Below are positions 1,456 through 22,011 of a stretch of 23,070 bases of DNA, piece after piece. The notes under the pieces are model-generated. The model saw only the letters and a program-made list of their open reading frames with translations. It did not search any database and was not told the origin of the DNA. This DNA is from a virus, in IMG/VR virus record IMGVR_UViG_3300020420_000063, positions 1 to 23,070 of that record; one strand, given 5' to 3'. Numbering within the stretch: position 1 is the first letter of the stretch; each line of letters begins with the position of its first letter. Position numbers and translations under genes: made by a program.

Positions 1456-1605
1456 ATGGCAAAACGCGGACTCTATGCAAACATCCACGCCAAACGTCTA
1501 AGAATCAAGAAAGGTTCTGGCGAAAAGATGAGGAAGCCCGGTCAGTCTGGAGCTCCTACTGCTGCAAACTTTAAACGTGCAGCTAAAACAGCAAAGAAAA
1601 GATAA
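1456..1605 (+). CDS. 49-aa basic phage protein
   Basis: ATG at 1456 follows the TAG of the microprotein directly and gives 49 residues, beginning MAKRGLYANIHAKRLRIKKG and ending FKRAAKTAKKR. Small proteins starting with the RGLYANI(H/N)AK motif recur in marine phages, as far as I remember, and are of unknown function. About a third of the residues are Lys or Arg, and there are only single acidic positions. It is the last gene before the structured capsid leader. A nucleic-acid-binding or virion-packaging role is possible but not shown. Confidence 0.75.
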   Translation: MAKRGLYANIHAKRLRIKKGSGEKMRKPGQSGAPTAANFKRAAKTAKKR

Positions 1606-1793
1606 GAGTAGTCAAGTAGACCATAGGGGAGGAGCATTACCTCCCTACTCAATTTGGCTAAAGCCCTCTGCGGAGGACACCTTTATGCCGTCGACGGTGG
1701 GAAAAGACCACAATCTCAGTGAGTCCAATTAAGACTCCTACAATTCTAGGCTAGAAGACGATACATAATACCCTTACATTTTAAGAAAAAATC
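1606..1793 (+). promoter_or_regulatory. Hairpin-rich leader upstream of the capsid gene
   Basis: These 188 nt between the 49-aa gene and the capsid start hold no convincing reading frame but a dense set of inverted repeats. GAGTAG (1606-1611) can pair with CTACTC (1645-1650), enclosing GGGAGG (1627-1632) with CCTCCC (1640-1645) in a competing or nested form. Further on are CCTC/GAGG (1665-1676) with a TGCG loop, the perfect palindrome CCGTCGACGG (1688-1697), GTGG/CCAC (1697-1711), GAGTC/GACTC (1721-1737) and TTCTAGGCTAGAA (1744-1756). The final 35 nt are unstructured and AT-rich. A capsid promoter probably lies here too, as phi10 does in T7, but I cannot point to a convincing consensus. It could be a processed, stable 5' leader or a separate small RNA. 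Confidence 0.55.
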
Positions 1794-3596: not shown

Positions 3597-6500
3597 TGGC
3601 AAACATAACACAAACTATACATAGTCTGAATGCTGGTATATCACAACAGCCTGACGAACAAAAGATTCCCGGTCAGGTAAAAGACATGCTAAATGCAGTA
3701 CCTGACATAACACAAGGTCTGCTAAAGAGACCGGCTGGTAAGTTTGTGAAAACTTTAGTAGGTTCTACAGATACCGGCAAATGGTTTCACTACTACAGAG
3801 ACGAAACCGAACAGTATGTAGGACAGATACAACGAGATGGTACTGTTAAAATGTGGGATTGCTTGACTGGTAATCCTAAGACAGTTGTTGATGTTACTAA
3901 TACAAGAGCATCAAACAATTTATATACATATGATGATGATACTACAGGTAATAAATATCTGAAGCATTCAGCAGATGATATGATTCAAACTCTAACTCTT
4001 AATGACTATACATATATAAGTAACAGAAATGTTAATACAAATATGAAAAGAGGTGCTTCTGATTTAGAACCTGAAGGAGATTTTTTAAAAGAAATATTTA
4101 TTGAATTAAAATCAATATCTTATGCAAAACAATATGCAGTAAATATTTTTGATAATACTGACCCCTCTACAGTTAGTACTGTTACTCGTATCAGTGTAGA
4201 CTTACAGAAATCTAGTAATAATTATTGTAATACCAGTGGACAAATGGTTGCTAGAAACTCACGAGCTGGTCAATCAACTAGATGTGGTAAAGCTGCTGGT
4301 GATAGTAGAGATGCTTTCGCACCTAACGTAGGTACAAGAATTTTTAGTATCAACGATGGCGGTACACTTACAGATGATGCAGTTTCTGGTTCTCATAGTT
4401 ACACAGTTGACGTTAAAAATTCTAGTGGTAACTCTGTTAACAGAGGAACAAATTTATATTTCCGCATAGCTACAACTGGACAGTCAGTGCCTTTTACAGA
4501 AACAACAGGTACTGCTGCTAATGAAGTTAACATAACTACATATCAAGCTAGATATACAACTACCCATGATTTACTACATGGTGGAGAAGGTTGGGAACAA
4601 GGAGATAATTTTACACTCTTTATGGAAGATGCTATTTATAAAGTCACTGTTGACTCTGTAAGTAAATCAGTAGTTCAAGCTAACTTAGCTTTAGTCAGAC
4701 CTCAACCTACACCATTTGACACAGAAACAACTGTAACTGCTGAGAGTATTCTTGGTGATATTAGAAAAGGTATAACTGGTAGTGCTACAGCTAGTACAGG
4801 TAATGGGTTCACTGTTACACAAATTGGTACAGGACTACATATAAAAAGAACTAGCGTATTCAACGCCTCTACGCCCGTAGGAGAGCTGTTAAATGTTGTT
4901 GCTGGTAAAGTTAATGATGTAGGTGATTTACCCTCTCAGTGCAAGCACGGGATGGTTGTAGAAGTAGTTAATAGTGCTGCTGAAGAAGATAATTATTTTG
5001 TTAAGTTCTTTGGTAGGGAAAAAGCAGACGGAACATTTGTTGATGGTGAGGGTACATGGGAAGAATGTGCTAAGCCGGGTAGAGCTATATCATTTGATGA
5101 AACTACTATGCCAGTAATTCTTATTAGAACTGCTGATGGTAACTTTAGACTTACAGAACAGAAAGGTGGTAACTATACTATTGCTGGTAAAGATTATCCA
5201 GTTCCACAGTGGGACAATGCTATAGTTGGTGATGATGTAACTAATCCAGAACCTTCTTTTATAGACAAACCTATTACGCAGATGCTATTCTTTAGAAATA
5301 GATTTGCATTGCTGTCTGATGAACATATAGTTATGTCACGTCCGGGAGACTTTACTAACTTCTTTGCTAAGTCTGCCATACAGTTAATAGCAAGTGACCC
5401 TATAGATATAGCTGCTAGTTCAGAGTATCCAGCAATTCTATTTGATGGCATACAAGTAAACACTGGTTTAATATTATTTTCTAAAAACCAACAGTTTATG
5501 TTGACAACTGATAGTGATGTCTTCAGTCCTACAACTGCTAAAATCAATGCGCTTTCTACCTATAATTTTAATTTTAAAACTAATCCTATTTCTCTTGGCA
5601 CTACGATTGGTTTCTTAGATAATGCTGGTAAGCATTCTAGATTCTTTGAAATGGCACAGATACAAAGAGAAGGGGAACCACAAGTTATAGAACAAAGTGC
5701 AGTTGTAGCTAAATTATTTGAGAATGATCTAGCTTTAATTAGTAACTCTAGAGAAAACTCAATAATATTATTTAGTGAAGACGATCAAAAAACATTATAT
5801 GGTTACAGATATTTCGATCAGATTACTGAAAGAAAATTAGCTTCTTGGTTTAGGTGGACTTTACCGGGAACTATTAAGTATCATTGTATGCAAGATGATG
5901 CTTTGTTTGTAGTGATAGAAAATAATTCTCAACGTGAGTTGTTAAAGTTTTCTATAAGAATGGATAGTAATACAGTTGCTTTAAACGATGACAGAGTACA
6001 TCTAGATTACTTAATGCCTGTAACATCCCTAGCAGCTAGTGCTTATAGTGGTGGTAATACTTCATTTACAAAACCAACTGGTTTAAATGGTGACGGACAA
6101 CTAGCCGTATATGACATAGATGGTAGTTTAGCTATAGGTAACTATGCAGAGGCGACAGTCGACGGTAGTGGTAATGTAGTAATACCCGGAGATTGGACAG
6201 GACAAGATTTTTATATAGGTTATCTATATACTATGTCAGTAACTATACCAACTATCTACTATGTAACTAGAACTGGAGAAAGCTTTAGAGCTGACACTAG
6301 ATCTAACACTATATTACATAGAGTCAAACTAGGGTTTGGTCCAGTAGGTATATATGAAACAACATTATCTAGGACAGGTAGAGAAGATTATACAGAACTG
6401 TTTGAAGTAACTCCTGCAAACCAAATAGCAGCTAACACAACAGGTGTGTTTGATGATAATATATTAAGAACAGTACCAATATATGATAGGAATATAAATA

Positions 6501-18019: not shown

Positions 18020-19687
18020 ATGGCTAAATTATTAAAACTAAGGCGTGGTACTACTTCGCAGCACAACACATTTACTGGTGCCGAAGGTGAAGTAACTATA
18101 GATACCACAAAAGACACAGCCGTCGTACATGACGGTTCACAAGCTGGTGGTAGACCACTAGCAAGAGAAGATATGTCAAACGTATCTTCATCATCTATAG
18201 CTAGTAGATTAGGTGCAGACTCTATAGCAACAACTAAGATTGCTGGTGGAGCTTTGCCAACAGACGTAACCGTAGCTAGTGCAAACATAGTTAACGGAAC
18301 AATCGTAGAAAGTGATATAGCTAACGATTCTGTGTCTACAGCAAAAATGTTAAACTTCCCAACTCAAACTATTTTAGGAAGAGAAACTGCTGGCACTGGT
18401 AATGCAACAACTCTAAATGCTTCACAAGTAAGAGGAATTATAAACGTAGAAAACGGAGCTACAGCAGACCAAACTGCTGCTGAGATTCGTACACTTGTAG
18501 AATCAGCATCTGACAGTAACGTGTTTACTGACGCAGATCACAGTAAATTAAATGGTATTGAAGCGTCAGCGACTGCCGATCAGTCAGCATCAGAAATCTT
18601 GACACTTATCAAGACAGTTGATGGTGCAGGTTCTGGACTAGATGCTGACACTTTAGATGGTGTTTCTTCTGGTAGTTTTGTAAGATCAGATGCAGCAGAT
18701 ACATTGTCTGGAACATATAACATGAGTGCTGATAGCACTGACGTACTAAATTTTTCTGCCAGCTCTACAAATGACAGTAGAGGTATAGCATTTAATAATA
18801 GAACAGCAATATCAGCAGACCATAATGATGGCTATTTAAGAATTAATCAAGGTTCTGAATTTGTTAATGGTACATATACACCGGGCGTTATGAGAGCTGA
18901 TGGTGGATTTCATGTAGATGGTGCTGCTTCTATTGATTCTTCTGGAAACATAGTTGCATCAAAAGTTCCAACACTTAACCAAAACACAACTGGTAATGCT
19001 ACAACTGCAACTAGATTGCAGACTGCAAGAACTATTGGTGGTACATCATTTAATGGAACTGCAAACATAACTCCAGCTCAATGTACAAACTCTGACACAG
19101 TTGACAACTTACATGCTTCAAGCTTTGTAAGATCAGATGCTGATGATACAGTAAATGCTACATTAACTACTCGAAGAGTACATGTCCAAGGTGGTTATGA
19201 TATAAGACTTAGCCAAGGAAACTGGACAGGAGAGTACGGTTCAAAGATTCAATATCACAGTAACAATTTATATCTTCAATATGGTAGTGGTAGTTTTATA
19301 GTTAGAGACCCATCTGGTAATAATAGATTTTCTGTAGATGGAAGTGGTAACGCAGTTGCTCAAGGTAACGTAACAGCTTACTCTGACGCAAGACTAAAAA
19401 CTGACGTTTCTACTATCAACGATGCTCTTGGTATTGTTGGTAAATTACGTGGTGTTAGTTATAAATGGTTAGCAGATGGTAAAGCTGGTATTGGTGTTAT
19501 TGCACAAGAAGTAGAAAAGGTTATACCAGAAGTAGTTGTGACTACTATGAACCCTGACCCTGCTACAGGTGAAAAAACAGAAGTCAAATCAGTTGACTAC
19601 GGAAAAATAGTAGGCGTACTTATAAACGCAATTAACGAACTTAAAGAAGAAGTTGAGGAATTAAAAAATGCCAAGATTACCGGATAG
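18020..19687 (+). CDS. Tail fibre/spike with Mtd-type N-terminus and C-terminal S74 self-cleaving chaperone
   Basis: This 555-aa protein begins with a short domain (LKLRRGTTSQHNTFTGAEGE, VVHDGSQAGGRPLA) like the N-terminal attachment domain of Bordetella phage Mtd and many other fibres. One 47-aa repeat unit shared with the preceding fibre follows (GALPTDVTVASANIVNGTIV). Then come ADQTAAEI and DTLDGVSSGSFVRSDA-type modules common in phage fibres. From about residue 450 it carries a peptidase S74 intramolecular chaperone. This has the SDARLK box with the expected Ser455 and Lys460 dyad, then GVSYKWLADGKAGIGVIAQE and a terminal helix (INELKEEVEELKNA). Cleavage before Ser455 would release about 101 residues after trimer folding. 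The start abuts the previous stop. The 3' end overlaps the next gene by 20 nt. Confidence 0.92.
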   Translation: MAKLLKLRRGTTSQHNTFTGAEGEVTIDTTKDTAVVHDGSQAGGRPLAREDMSNVSSSSIASRLGADSIATTKIAGGALPTDVTVASANIVNGTIVESDIANDSVSTAKMLNFPTQTILGRETAGTGNATTLNASQVRGIINVENGATADQTAAEIRTLVESASDSNVFTDADHSKLNGIEASATADQSASEILTLIKTVDGAGSGLDADTLDGVSSGSFVRSDAADTLSGTYNMSADSTDVLNFSASSTNDSRGIAFNNRTAISADHNDGYLRINQGSEFVNGTYTPGVMRADGGFHVDGAASIDSSGNIVASKVPTLNQNTTGNATTATRLQTARTIGGTSFNGTANITPAQCTNSDTVDNLHASSFVRSDADDTVNATLTTRRVHVQGGYDIRLSQGNWTGEYGSKIQYHSNNLYLQYGSGSFIVRDPSGNNRFSVDGSGNAVAQGNVTAYSDARLKTDVSTINDALGIVGKLRGVSYKWLADGKAGIGVIAQEVEKVIPEVVVTTMNPDPATGEKTEVKSVDYGKIVGVLINAINELKEEVEELKNAKITG

Positions 19688-21014
19688 TGGTCCGTTAAAT
19701 ATGAATGATATCGCTGGCGAGTTTGGGGGAGATACACCCCATTCTCTCAACGAATATTATAGAAACGGCGCATATACAACCTCTAACAATACAGGAGTAC
19801 CTACTTCTGGAGCTATCTCTATTGGTCAGTTTTATGATTGTATTGGTGAGATTCATTATACAATAAGTGGTAACACAACTAACTTTCATTGTGCAAGTGC
19901 TTTCGGTAGTGACTGGGGTTCTTCAGTTCCAAAACGTCTATACATAAACTCAGGAGTAACAGTCGGTGGTACATCAGGTGCTGCTGTAAATATTTCTGCA
20001 AGTATGGGCGGAACATTAGTAGTACATAACTCAGGGTCAATCCAAGGTTATGGTGGTGCTTCTAATGGTGGTACCGGAGGACCAGCTATTTCTGCTGTGT
20101 CTACATCTGGTGTTACTATTGAAAACAACTCTGGCGCGTCTATATATGGCGGAGGCGGAGGCGGTGGACAAGGTGGAGCCGGTGGTACTGGCGGACAAGG
20201 CGGAACTGGAGGTTCTGGAGGTTCTGGAGGAGCTGGTACTTATCAATACAACGTAGGTGGTACTGGAAGTCCTTTCAACACCAACTATATATCCAACGCA
20301 GGTAGTATGTGCAACAACCGAGGTATGTATAACCAAGGTGGAAGAGGACAAGCTGGTGGTTGCTGGCATAGTTCTACTGCTGCGTGTCAACGTTTTAAAG
20401 GTGGACATACATTTTCAACAAACGGTTGGAGTACAGGAATTAAATATGATAGAGACCGCTCAAAATTCTATTGCTGTCAAGGTGCCTACCAATGTAGTGC
20501 AAACCAAACCACATCAGGTGGTGGCGGTGGTAGCGGTGGAGCTGGAGGCTCTGGCGGAAGCGGTGGAGCTGGCGGAGCTGGCGGTGTAGGTCAAGGTTAC
20601 GGACAATCTGCTACATCAGGTTCAGGTGGTTCTAGTGGAGCTGGAGGTAACTCTGGTTCAGGTGGTTCTGGCGGTTCTGCTGGAGGTACTAACGCTGGTT
20701 CTGGAGGAACAGGTGGAACTGGAGGAACAGGTGGTCAAGGCGGAACCGGGGGAACCGGTGGAGCTGGAGGCAACTTTGGTAACGCAGGGTCTTCTGGAAA
20801 CGCAGGAGCTACAGGTAACACAGGAGCACAAGGAGCTACAGGTAATACTGGAGGCAACGGTAACGCTGGAAGCGGTGCTGGAGGTTCTGGAGGTAGTAAT
20901 GGTTCTGGTGGTTCAGGTGGTTCAGGTGGTTCTGGCGGAGGACAAGCTGGTTATTATATCACTAACCGAGGTTCAATCTCATTTACAAACAACGGCACCG
21001 TTGGAGGTCGCTAA
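19668..21014 (+). CDS. Glycine-rich tail adhesin (T-even gp38-like architecture)
   Basis: This 448-aa protein probably sits at the fibre tip and touches the receptor. The N-terminus (MPRLPDSGPLNMNDIAGEFG, SLNEYYRNGAYT, GVPTSGAISIGQFYD) is a module frequent in marine phage tail proteins. Residues 60-160 look like beta-rich solenoid sequence (INSGVTVGGTSGAAVNIS, VVHNSGSIQGYGG). Two glycine-rich tracts (about 161-188 and 284-426, GGSGG, GGTGG and GGAGG units) fit polyglycine-II packing as in gp38 adhesins. Between them is an island with six cysteines (215-276). The C-terminus returns to solenoid style (NRGSISFTNNGTVGGR). ATG 19668 has a GAGGAA Shine-Dalgarno at 19655-19660 and overlaps the upstream gene by 20 nt. 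The role is inferred from architecture. Confidence 0.85.
   Translation: MPRLPDSGPLNMNDIAGEFGGDTPHSLNEYYRNGAYTTSNNTGVPTSGAISIGQFYDCIGEIHYTISGNTTNFHCASAFGSDWGSSVPKRLYINSGVTVGGTSGAAVNISASMGGTLVVHNSGSIQGYGGASNGGTGGPAISAVSTSGVTIENNSGASIYGGGGGGGQGGAGGTGGQGGTGGSGGSGGAGTYQYNVGGTGSPFNTNYISNAGSMCNNRGMYNQGGRGQAGGCWHSSTAACQRFKGGHTFSTNGWSTGIKYDRDRSKFYCCQGAYQCSANQTTSGGGGGSGGAGGSGGSGGAGGAGGVGQGYGQSATSGSGGSSGAGGNSGSGGSGGSAGGTNAGSGGTGGTGGTGGQGGTGGTGGAGGNFGNAGSSGNAGATGNTGAQGATGNTGGNGNAGSGAGGSGGSNGSGGSGGSGGSGGGQAGYYITNRGSISFTNNGTVGGR
20148..20945 (+). repeat. Low-complexity GGN-rich tracts coding for glycine repeats
   Basis: Two stretches, 20148-20240 and 20511-20945, consist mostly of GGT, GGA and GGC codons with Ser, Thr, Ala or Gln between. 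The 20240-20510 segment separating them is normal sequence with the cysteine codons. GGN tracts like these favour slippage and recombination, so length variation between related phages is likely. Confidence 0.85.
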
Positions 21015-21471: not shown

Positions 21472-22011
21472 ATGAACAAAAAATTAGATTTACGAGTTAA
21501 AGATAACTTTTTAAATGATAGAGATTTCTGGTATTTAAAAGATTTATTTTTAAACGAACAAACTATTTACAATCCTGTTTGGTCTATATCAGATCAAGAT
21601 GAATACAAAGATAAGGATGAATATGATAACTGGTTTATGACTCATTTAATTTATGGTGATTGCCGGATTTATAGTTCATCCTTTGAAGAGGTGCAAAAAA
21701 GATTAATTACACCACTTAAAAATCTAGAAGAAACACAATTTGGATTTTTAACAAGAATAAAAATAAATATGTATCCACATACTCACGAAGTAAAAGAACA
21801 TATGTTACACAAAGATGCGACGCATTGTAATAGACTTCGTGGTGCTATATATTGTTTAAATACTTGTGATGGCTACACAGGATTTGCAGATGGTACAAAA
21901 GTAGAAAGTATCGAAAATAGATTAATATTATTTAATTCTTTGGAAGATCACCATTCTACATCAACTTCTAATGCACAAGTTCGTCTTAACATAAATATTA
22001 ACTATGTCTAA
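21472..22011 (+). CDS. 2-oxoglutarate/Fe(II)-dependent oxygenase (prolyl hydroxylase-like)
   Basis: This 179-aa protein has a complete 2OG/Fe(II) triad. H-x-D is in EHMLHKDA (His113, Asp115), the distal histidine is in LEDHHSTSTS (His160 or His161), and Arg171 in QVRLNININ binds the 2-oxoglutarate carboxylate. GAIYCLNTCDGYTGFADG lies between, as expected for the double-stranded beta-helix. The fold resembles prolyl-4-hydroxylase-type phage enzymes. The substrate is unknown. It differs clearly from the oxygenase at 489-1106, so the two are not recent duplicates. Its last 8 nt overlap the next gene's start. Confidence 0.8.
   Translation: MNKKLDLRVKDNFLNDRDFWYLKDLFLNEQTIYNPVWSISDQDEYKDKDEYDNWFMTHLIYGDCRIYSSSFEEVQKRLITPLKNLEETQFGFLTRIKINMYPHTHEVKEHMLHKDATHCNRLRGAIYCLNTCDGYTGFADGTKVESIENRLILFNSLEDHHSTSTSNAQVRLNININYV

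Follow-up and report, generated by a model that had tools for sequence, protein, structure and literature searches.

Results

The gap before the capsid gene

The DNA investigated here, referred to as the window, is a 23,070-base virus record originating from a T7-like cyanophage. Its gene order starts with the end of psbA and continues through a 2OG-Fe(II) oxygenase gene (489-1106, PHROGs), small open reading frames (ORFs) and the major capsid gene, downstream of which lie tail and internal virion genes assigned by PHROG; an endonuclease V gene is present at 21472-22011 (PHROGs). A very glycine-rich protein is encoded at 19668-21014, where long open frames overlap in other frames. Between the small ORF at 1456-1605 and the capsid gene, the ORF list leaves a gap of 188 nt (1606-1793), the longest between main ORFs of the window, in agreement with the first-pass annotation, which had described it as the longest non-coding stretch. 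The features of this leader and its flanks are as follows.

1456..1605, + strand: upstream small ORF of 49 aa, PHROG 16028, unknown function (E 8.6e-32); its stop codon abuts the leader
1606..1651, + strand: P1, tRNA-like module, with compensatory changes in relatives, some of which have a full tRNA at this position
1606-1611/1645-1650, + strand: P1 acceptor
1611-1613/1619-1621, + strand: P1 small D-like hairpin; base 1611 is also in the acceptor
about 1628-1632/1640-1644, + strand: P1 T-arm, with a 7-nt loop at 1633-1639
1653..1713, + strand: core, match to covariance model R1 from P2 to P5 (60.6 bits, E 1.7e-13)
1656..1689, + strand: P2, helix around P3 (1656-1663 with 1681-1689, bulge at 1686), with covariation
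1665..1680, + strand: P3 hairpin, YNMG-type loop UGCG (1669-1672), bulge ACAC (1677-1680)
1688..1697, + strand: P4, palindrome CCGTCGACGG
1697..1711, + strand: P5 hairpin, GUGG-GAAAAGA-CCAC, with covariation
1721..1737, + strand: hairpin GAGUC-CAAUUAA-GACUC, present in part of the relatives
1744..1756, + strand: P6 hairpin, UUCUA-GGC-UAGAA; its loop is not self-complementary in the window
1757..1793, + strand: A/T-rich stretch reaching the capsid start codon
1794..2939, + strand: major capsid gene, PHROG 27239 and 267, major head protein; we infer that it is under control of the leader

The seven inverted repeats from which a highly structured leader had originally been proposed are all present within 1606-1793: GAGTAG/CTACTC (1606-1611/1645-1650), which indeed begins directly after a stop codon, the TAA of the 1456-1605 ORF, GGGAGG/CCTCCC (1627-1632/1640-1645), CCTC/GAGG (1665-1668/1673-1676), the palindrome at 1688-1697, GTGG/CCAC (1697-1700/1708-1711), GAGTC/GACTC (1721-1725/1733-1737) and TTCTAGGCTAGAA (1744-1756). 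The first two had been thought to compete; they have only base 1645 in common and are nested as the acceptor and T-arm of a tRNA-like fold. Helix P2, which surrounds CCTC/GAGG, had been overlooked. P4 shares bases with both P2 and P5 and therefore excludes part of each when folded.

Comparison of folding energy with shuffled sequence, proposed as a check of the structured leader, lent it weak support, as the window lies near the shuffled controls: the gap folds at -47.3 kcal/mol with shuffles at -39.6 kcal/mol (sd 4.09, z -1.88), and 8 of 200 shuffles were as good. Mean z was -1.60 in 60 of the 242 leaders described below (the window plus 59 random) compared with -0.91 in 30 coding stretches. 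The predicted minimum-energy fold of the window (-45.6 kcal/mol) departs from the consensus fold (-41.9 kcal/mol).

Conservation and covariation of the core

Relatives were obtained by scanning viral contigs with the capsid protein, using the best 80 of a longer list. A set of 242 unique leaders comprises these capsid-fetched loci, motif-fetched loci and named phages, with 24 loci with short upstream sequence and one without a start left out. Since many of the 242 leaders were motif-fetched, the frequencies given refer, wherever possible, to capsid-fetched sets.

The core follows a fixed order, P2 around P3, A[U/C]A(A)C after the P3 loop, a palindrome and then P5. Covariance model R1 was built from 56 rows, from which the window is absent, and its match in the window places a P2/P3/P5 core directly before a T7-like capsid gene (1794), making the window a member of the family. 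R1 scores of 60-84 bits were observed in 10 of 20 sources, the window, P-SSP7, P-SSP2, P-GSP1, S-TIP37, S28-C3, 9515-10a, S-RIP2, NATL1A-7 and S-CBP1, with S-TIP37 and 9515-10a being rows of the model; P60, SS120-1, S-CBP42 and S-TIP28 scored 18-20 bits and P-SCSP1p 15.6 bits. Beyond the leader, R1 gives no further clear match in the window or anywhere else in the P-SSP7 genome. It misses Syn5, whose leader was found by eye and with a P3 descriptor and carries the P3 motif and, by eye, a tRNA-like module. A YNMG tetraloop caps P3 in 176 of 177 parsed cores, 13 of the 190 distinct cores being left out of the parse, and the loop is UACG in 128.

Covariation, which the first-pass annotation had suggested looking for, is present in the core of the relatives. 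In a MAFFT alignment of 56 cores, 98.3% of cells are paired and 8 of 14 pairs have changed on both sides, giving a covariation score of 0.426 compared with 0.115 (sd 0.012) in 500 shuffles and at most 0.099 in slid controls, while further pair types in this alignment show no excess (18, with 17.7 in shuffles). Under a tree-based null, self-written after the R-scape idea and applied to 102 distinct rows with 40 null alignments, one P2, two P3 and one P5 pair lie above all null values and three more have E <0.1; 6 of the 13 pairs, mostly invariant, are not significant. Both tests are biased in favour of the structure by the way in which their rows were parsed or selected, P3 and P5 being aligned by pairing in the tree-based test and the 56 R1 rows being chosen partly by core shape. 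Combined, the comparisons indicate structure beyond chance, weakly by energy and clearly by conservation and covariation.

Variant cores were also observed. P3 has a longer stem in L288 (8871-8951), L274 (414-496) and L277 (3770-3849), as expected for an RNA helix. L096, L134, L189, L194 and L196 combine a hairpin P1 with a rearranged core, and in several of these a palindromic hairpin precedes the P2/P3 unit.

The first module is a tRNA-like fold, a full tRNA or a hairpin

P1 is present in all 57 unique leaders having at least 200 nt of upstream sequence, a set consisting of the window and loci fetched by the capsid protein alone from the best 80 relatives of a longer list; it is tRNA-like in 34 and a hairpin in 23. 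Across the 242 leaders 161 are hairpin and 79 tRNA-like, the remaining two (L243 and L285) being neither by rule and tRNA-like by eye. Both arms of the tRNA-like form, acceptor and T-arm, show compensatory changes among relatives, and the loop in the window, AGCAUUA, is atypical in departing from the T-loop pattern of most relatives; the tRNA-like parse behind the arm compensation and loop counts mis-sorted a few leaders, e.g. L066.

Full tRNAs, three tRNA-Gly and one tRNA-Leu, are detected by ARAGORN in 4 of 242 leaders, compared with 0 of 4,840 shuffled leaders. In NATL1A-7 a tRNA-Gly is annotated in the leader (RF00005, 70.5 bits) and the R1 core match begins on its last base, and in Rhizobium phage RHEph01 an annotated tRNA-Asn precedes the capsid gene together with the P3 motif. 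No full-cloverleaf tRNA (RF00005) was found in the window leader, which gave no tRNA by ARAGORN and no Rfam match. In the hairpin type, a 15-nt loop is conserved, CACCUCAGAGUCGGA occurring in 126 of the 159 counted, and the five loop-adjacent pairs are intact in 98-100% of 83 distinct forms. Spacing to P2 is narrow for both types, with 2 nt (33/65) or 3 nt (32/65) from the tRNA-like discriminator and 13 nt (103/134) or 14 nt (29/134) from the end of the hairpin loop.

The range of P1 forms, from full tRNA to short fold, and the integrases annotated in P-SSP7 and Syn5 would suit an integration site or a tRNA gene undergoing decay, either of them having no function in the leader. This origin is barely credible, as compensatory changes maintain the pairing of both arms, P1 keeps a fixed distance from P2 and a conserved hairpin takes its position in other leaders. 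The hairpin type was considered as a host RNA and rejected as such: 257 Gb of genomes contained 41 exact matches, whereas ~120 would be expected under uniformity.

A second copy of the hairpin-type P1 was observed in L280 (minus strand, ~1045-1175 from its start) and L289 (121-240, + strand), where it precedes a different structured element and then a further gene, itself located upstream of the capsid gene. The genes concerned encode 164 and 228 aa and have only weak PHROG matches, to families of unknown function; the hairpin module may serve virion genes besides capsid.

Considered as an RNase P/RNase Z-type element, P1 has its helices present and compensated in relatives, and an atypical loop in the window. 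The stop of the upstream open frame, defined as any stretch of at least 28 codons and not a proven gene, lies inside the fold, 6-19 nt before the T-arm, in 45 of 52 scorable tRNA-like leaders; in the window the upstream stop falls just before the fold. A cut at the acceptor would remove a stop located inside the fold, and a simple 5′ cut by RNase P is therefore disfavoured; P1 may instead be cut on its 3′ side, hinder decay or act in translation.

Distribution and linkage to the capsid gene

The P3 plus bulge descriptor matches 242 of 251 unique leaders, with seven further matches in 4.75 Mb of strand sequence, four of which resemble leaders at contig ends. With a relaxed bulge, P3 is present in 65/66 cyanophage, 43/51 pelagiphage and 46/46 roseophage capsid-fetched leaders, 0.0016 being expected per 290 nt; the bulge rule was relaxed after near misses had been seen, the stricter rule giving 36/51 pelagiphage and 37/46 roseophage leaders. 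The sole cyanophage miss, L040, has GC-rich sequence joining abruptly inside the leader and has the appearance of a chimeric contig. Scanning viral contigs with the pattern yielded 100 stretches, 78 of them directly before a T7-like capsid gene (30 roseophage, 28 cyanophage, 15 pelagiphage and 5 of P-SCSP type) and 22 without a T7-like capsid gene in the DNA examined. Among 14 single phages, the P3 motif is present in Syn5, P-SCSP1p, HTVC011P, HTVC119P, CRP-227, RHEph01 and BB8, and absent from T7, SP6, phiKMV, ProddE, YIMV22061, PlaquesPlease and S39C11; the motif-bearing phages include a Rhizobium phage and a Bordetella phage, in which it likewise precedes the capsid gene. Judged from sequence comparison, nearly all of the T7-like cyanophage leaders examined have a conserved, predicted structured RNA ahead of the capsid gene.

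The P3 motif is shared by phages infecting cyanobacteria, SAR11, roseobacters, Rhizobium and Bordetella, which points to a partner that is either universal or encoded by the phages. This would suit a translation element, in which the ribosome or a phage protein such as capsid or scaffold binds the core and boosts or autoregulates capsid translation with no need for cleavage, P1 only shielding or positioning the core; upstream stops inside the tRNA-like fold would then be harmless or could couple translation. However, the core is separated from the start codon by ~115 nt in the window and by 67-119 nt in those single phages that carry the motif, away from the ribosome site, and we regard this explanation as possible but rather doubtful.

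The same distribution bears on a separate phage small RNA, one of the first-pass proposals, or a released tRNA-like RNA acting in trans. While such an RNA would be in keeping with the full tRNA of some relatives and the strong conservation of structure, the motif is tied to the capsid gene in 78 of the 100 pattern stretches, in one strand and order, and the tRNA module is often swapped for an unrelated hairpin, making this option very unlikely.

Downstream hairpins

At least two perfect palindromes of at least 8 nt occur in the last 170 nt of 218 of 242 leaders, compared with ~30 predicted from shuffles. The best hairpin after P5 was scorable in 218 of the 242 leaders (24 dropped), giving 120 distinct hairpins, 65 with a 4-nt loop and 55 with other loop sizes. 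Self-complementary 4-nt loops are found in 60/65 of these hairpins compared with 40/615 in shuffles, and a G-U pair is present in 55 of the 65, which fits RNA. The 4-nt loop of P6 is self-complementary in many relatives; the rule is not universal, since the window keeps the first palindrome but has GGC as its P6 loop.

Promoters at the capsid gene

Sigma-70-like and terminator-like sites were both absent from 1400-2000. Leader 16-mers did not recur elsewhere in P-SSP7 or Syn5 at <2 mismatches, whereas a coding control did, and the recurring word expected of promoters for a phage single-subunit RNA polymerase was not found at the leader. The Syn5 polymerase is described as having only two promoters, with >37 kb read from one (PMC3950665). 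These sites are located at 4929 and 44797 and the capsid gene at 20017; with both promoters elsewhere, the Syn5 capsid gene is left without a phage promoter of its own. Searching the window for the Syn5 promoter with up to 3 mismatches gave one chance-level site, at 18072. The conserved UUGGC..GCC was accordingly rejected as a Syn5 promoter, the promoters of Syn5 being elsewhere and the window having only this chance-level site. The promoter predicted for P-SSP7 (PMC11475235) was likewise rejected as a leader element, 3-mismatch sites occurring at 35720 and 37200 and none in the leader.

In T7 the phi10 promoter is annotated at the capsid gene and the P3 motif is absent; phiKMV similarly has a putative promoter at its capsid gene and lacks the motif. 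The capsid-gene stretch of SP6 contains a sequence which we take to be an SP6 promoter. The suggested contrast, motif or promoter at the capsid gene, comes from few phages, and ProddE, YIMV22061, PlaquesPlease and S39C11 count against it, lacking the P3 motif with no promoter annotated in the stretch fetched. By eye, the gene 10 mRNA start of T7 (L344, 1405-1467), GGGAGACCACAA, resembles GGGAuaGACCACAA in the P5 region of many leaders, a resemblance seen in the window at 1700-1713.

A DNA element, be it a phage promoter, an operator or another palindrome-binding site, would explain the frequent palindromes, which exceed expectation as given above. Compensatory helix changes and the G-U pairs of the 4-nt-loop hairpins speak against it, as do the lack of a repeated promoter-like word or sigma-70-like site and the location of the Syn5 promoters elsewhere, and we consider it highly improbable.

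Discussion

T7-like phages infect marine cyanobacteria, SAR11 and roseobacters. As at least Syn5 uses only two phage promoters, the question arises of how hundreds of capsid proteins per virion are obtained from one long transcript. The gap almost certainly encodes a structured RNA family acting in cis, a conclusion drawn from the sequences compared here, and the leader probably raises capsid expression; that it does so via a processed or protected 5′ end is a tentative proposal, put at somewhat below even odds. Our preferred explanation, with a probability of roughly 45%, is that the gap encodes a cis-acting structured leader providing the capsid message with a protected 5′ boundary of its own inside a long late transcript. 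The RNA family is well supported; its processing is something we infer. Of the four roles offered in the first-pass annotation, a stable 5′ leader and a processing site fit best with the covariation, the position at the capsid gene and the tRNA or tRNA-like piece, whereas a promoter/operator region is disfavoured and the separate small RNA has been dealt with above.

In the proposed mechanism, late genes would be read as long messages, the capsid gene having no phage promoter, as in the published case of Syn5, and P1 would set the 5′ boundary of an abundant capsid message, either via processing at the tRNA-like element or hairpin or via a block to 5′ decay. The core, located 2-3 nt after a tRNA-like P1, would protect that end and favour translation, so that the leader RNA could do post-transcriptionally what the capsid-gene promoter does in T7 or SP6. 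Host RNase E is described as raised during P-SSP7 infection (PMC9692554), a situation in which a protected 5′ end would be useful.

A further alternative is an RNA machine in place of a promoter, in which a captured tRNA, its mimic or a substitute hairpin, docked with fixed spacing on the conserved P2/P3 core, recruits ribosomes to the capsid start in a very long transcript, much as the intergenic ribosome entry sites of viruses do but in bacteria, with the self-complementary loops pairing capsid mRNAs. We regard it as unlikely.

The conserved RNA would represent a new RNA family, no Rfam 15 match having been found in the window, and could mark capsid genes in metagenomic data. Its precise placement at the capsid gene, with a swappable tRNA or mimic module, makes the question of capsid output testable.

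Comparison with known systems

In tRNA punctuation in mitochondria and in mascRNA/menRNA, a tRNA or an anticodon-armless tRNA-like fold lies between coding units of a long transcript. The tRNA-like piece of the leader is similarly positioned between coding units of a long transcript. It differs in that cleavage is putative, upstream stops are usually inside the fold, the module is replaceable by an unrelated hairpin and the core has no counterpart. The mascRNA-menRNA family (RF01684) has no match in the window, and the S-TIP28 leader has a sub-threshold match to it (21.5 bits, cut-off 42.5). No Rfam 15 family was found over the window leader, searching the whole window at the gathering threshold and the leader at E up to 10, and searches at E up to 10 with the window, NATL1A-7 and S-TIP28 leaders gave only the tRNA in NATL1A-7 above the cut-off.

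Structured RNAs located before genes in cyanophage or marine sequence are described for the PhotoRC, manA and wcaG motifs (PMC2864571, Weinberg 2010). As described there, these are tied to psbA-like, sugar or light-induced genes, whereas the present leader is tied to capsid. They give no above-threshold match in the window; one sub-threshold PhotoRC-I match (15.3 bits) lies on the opposite strand of S-TIP28.

The leader resembles the T7 gene 10 leader and phi10 promoter in lying immediately ahead of the capsid gene in a T7-like phage, but T7 starts transcription at gene 10 and is without the P3 motif. Retroviral dimer-initiation hairpins have self-complementary loops, as do hairpins of the leader. 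In contrast to the retroviral case, these occur in the mRNA of a dsDNA phage, dimerisation is putative and P6 of the window breaks the loop rule. Among the matches listed in a search of the open-access literature, no structured or tRNA-bearing capsid leader is described in these phages. The kind of element, a structured leader with a tRNA-like element, is known, while the present family appears to be new, as do the swappable module at its start and its link with the capsid gene.
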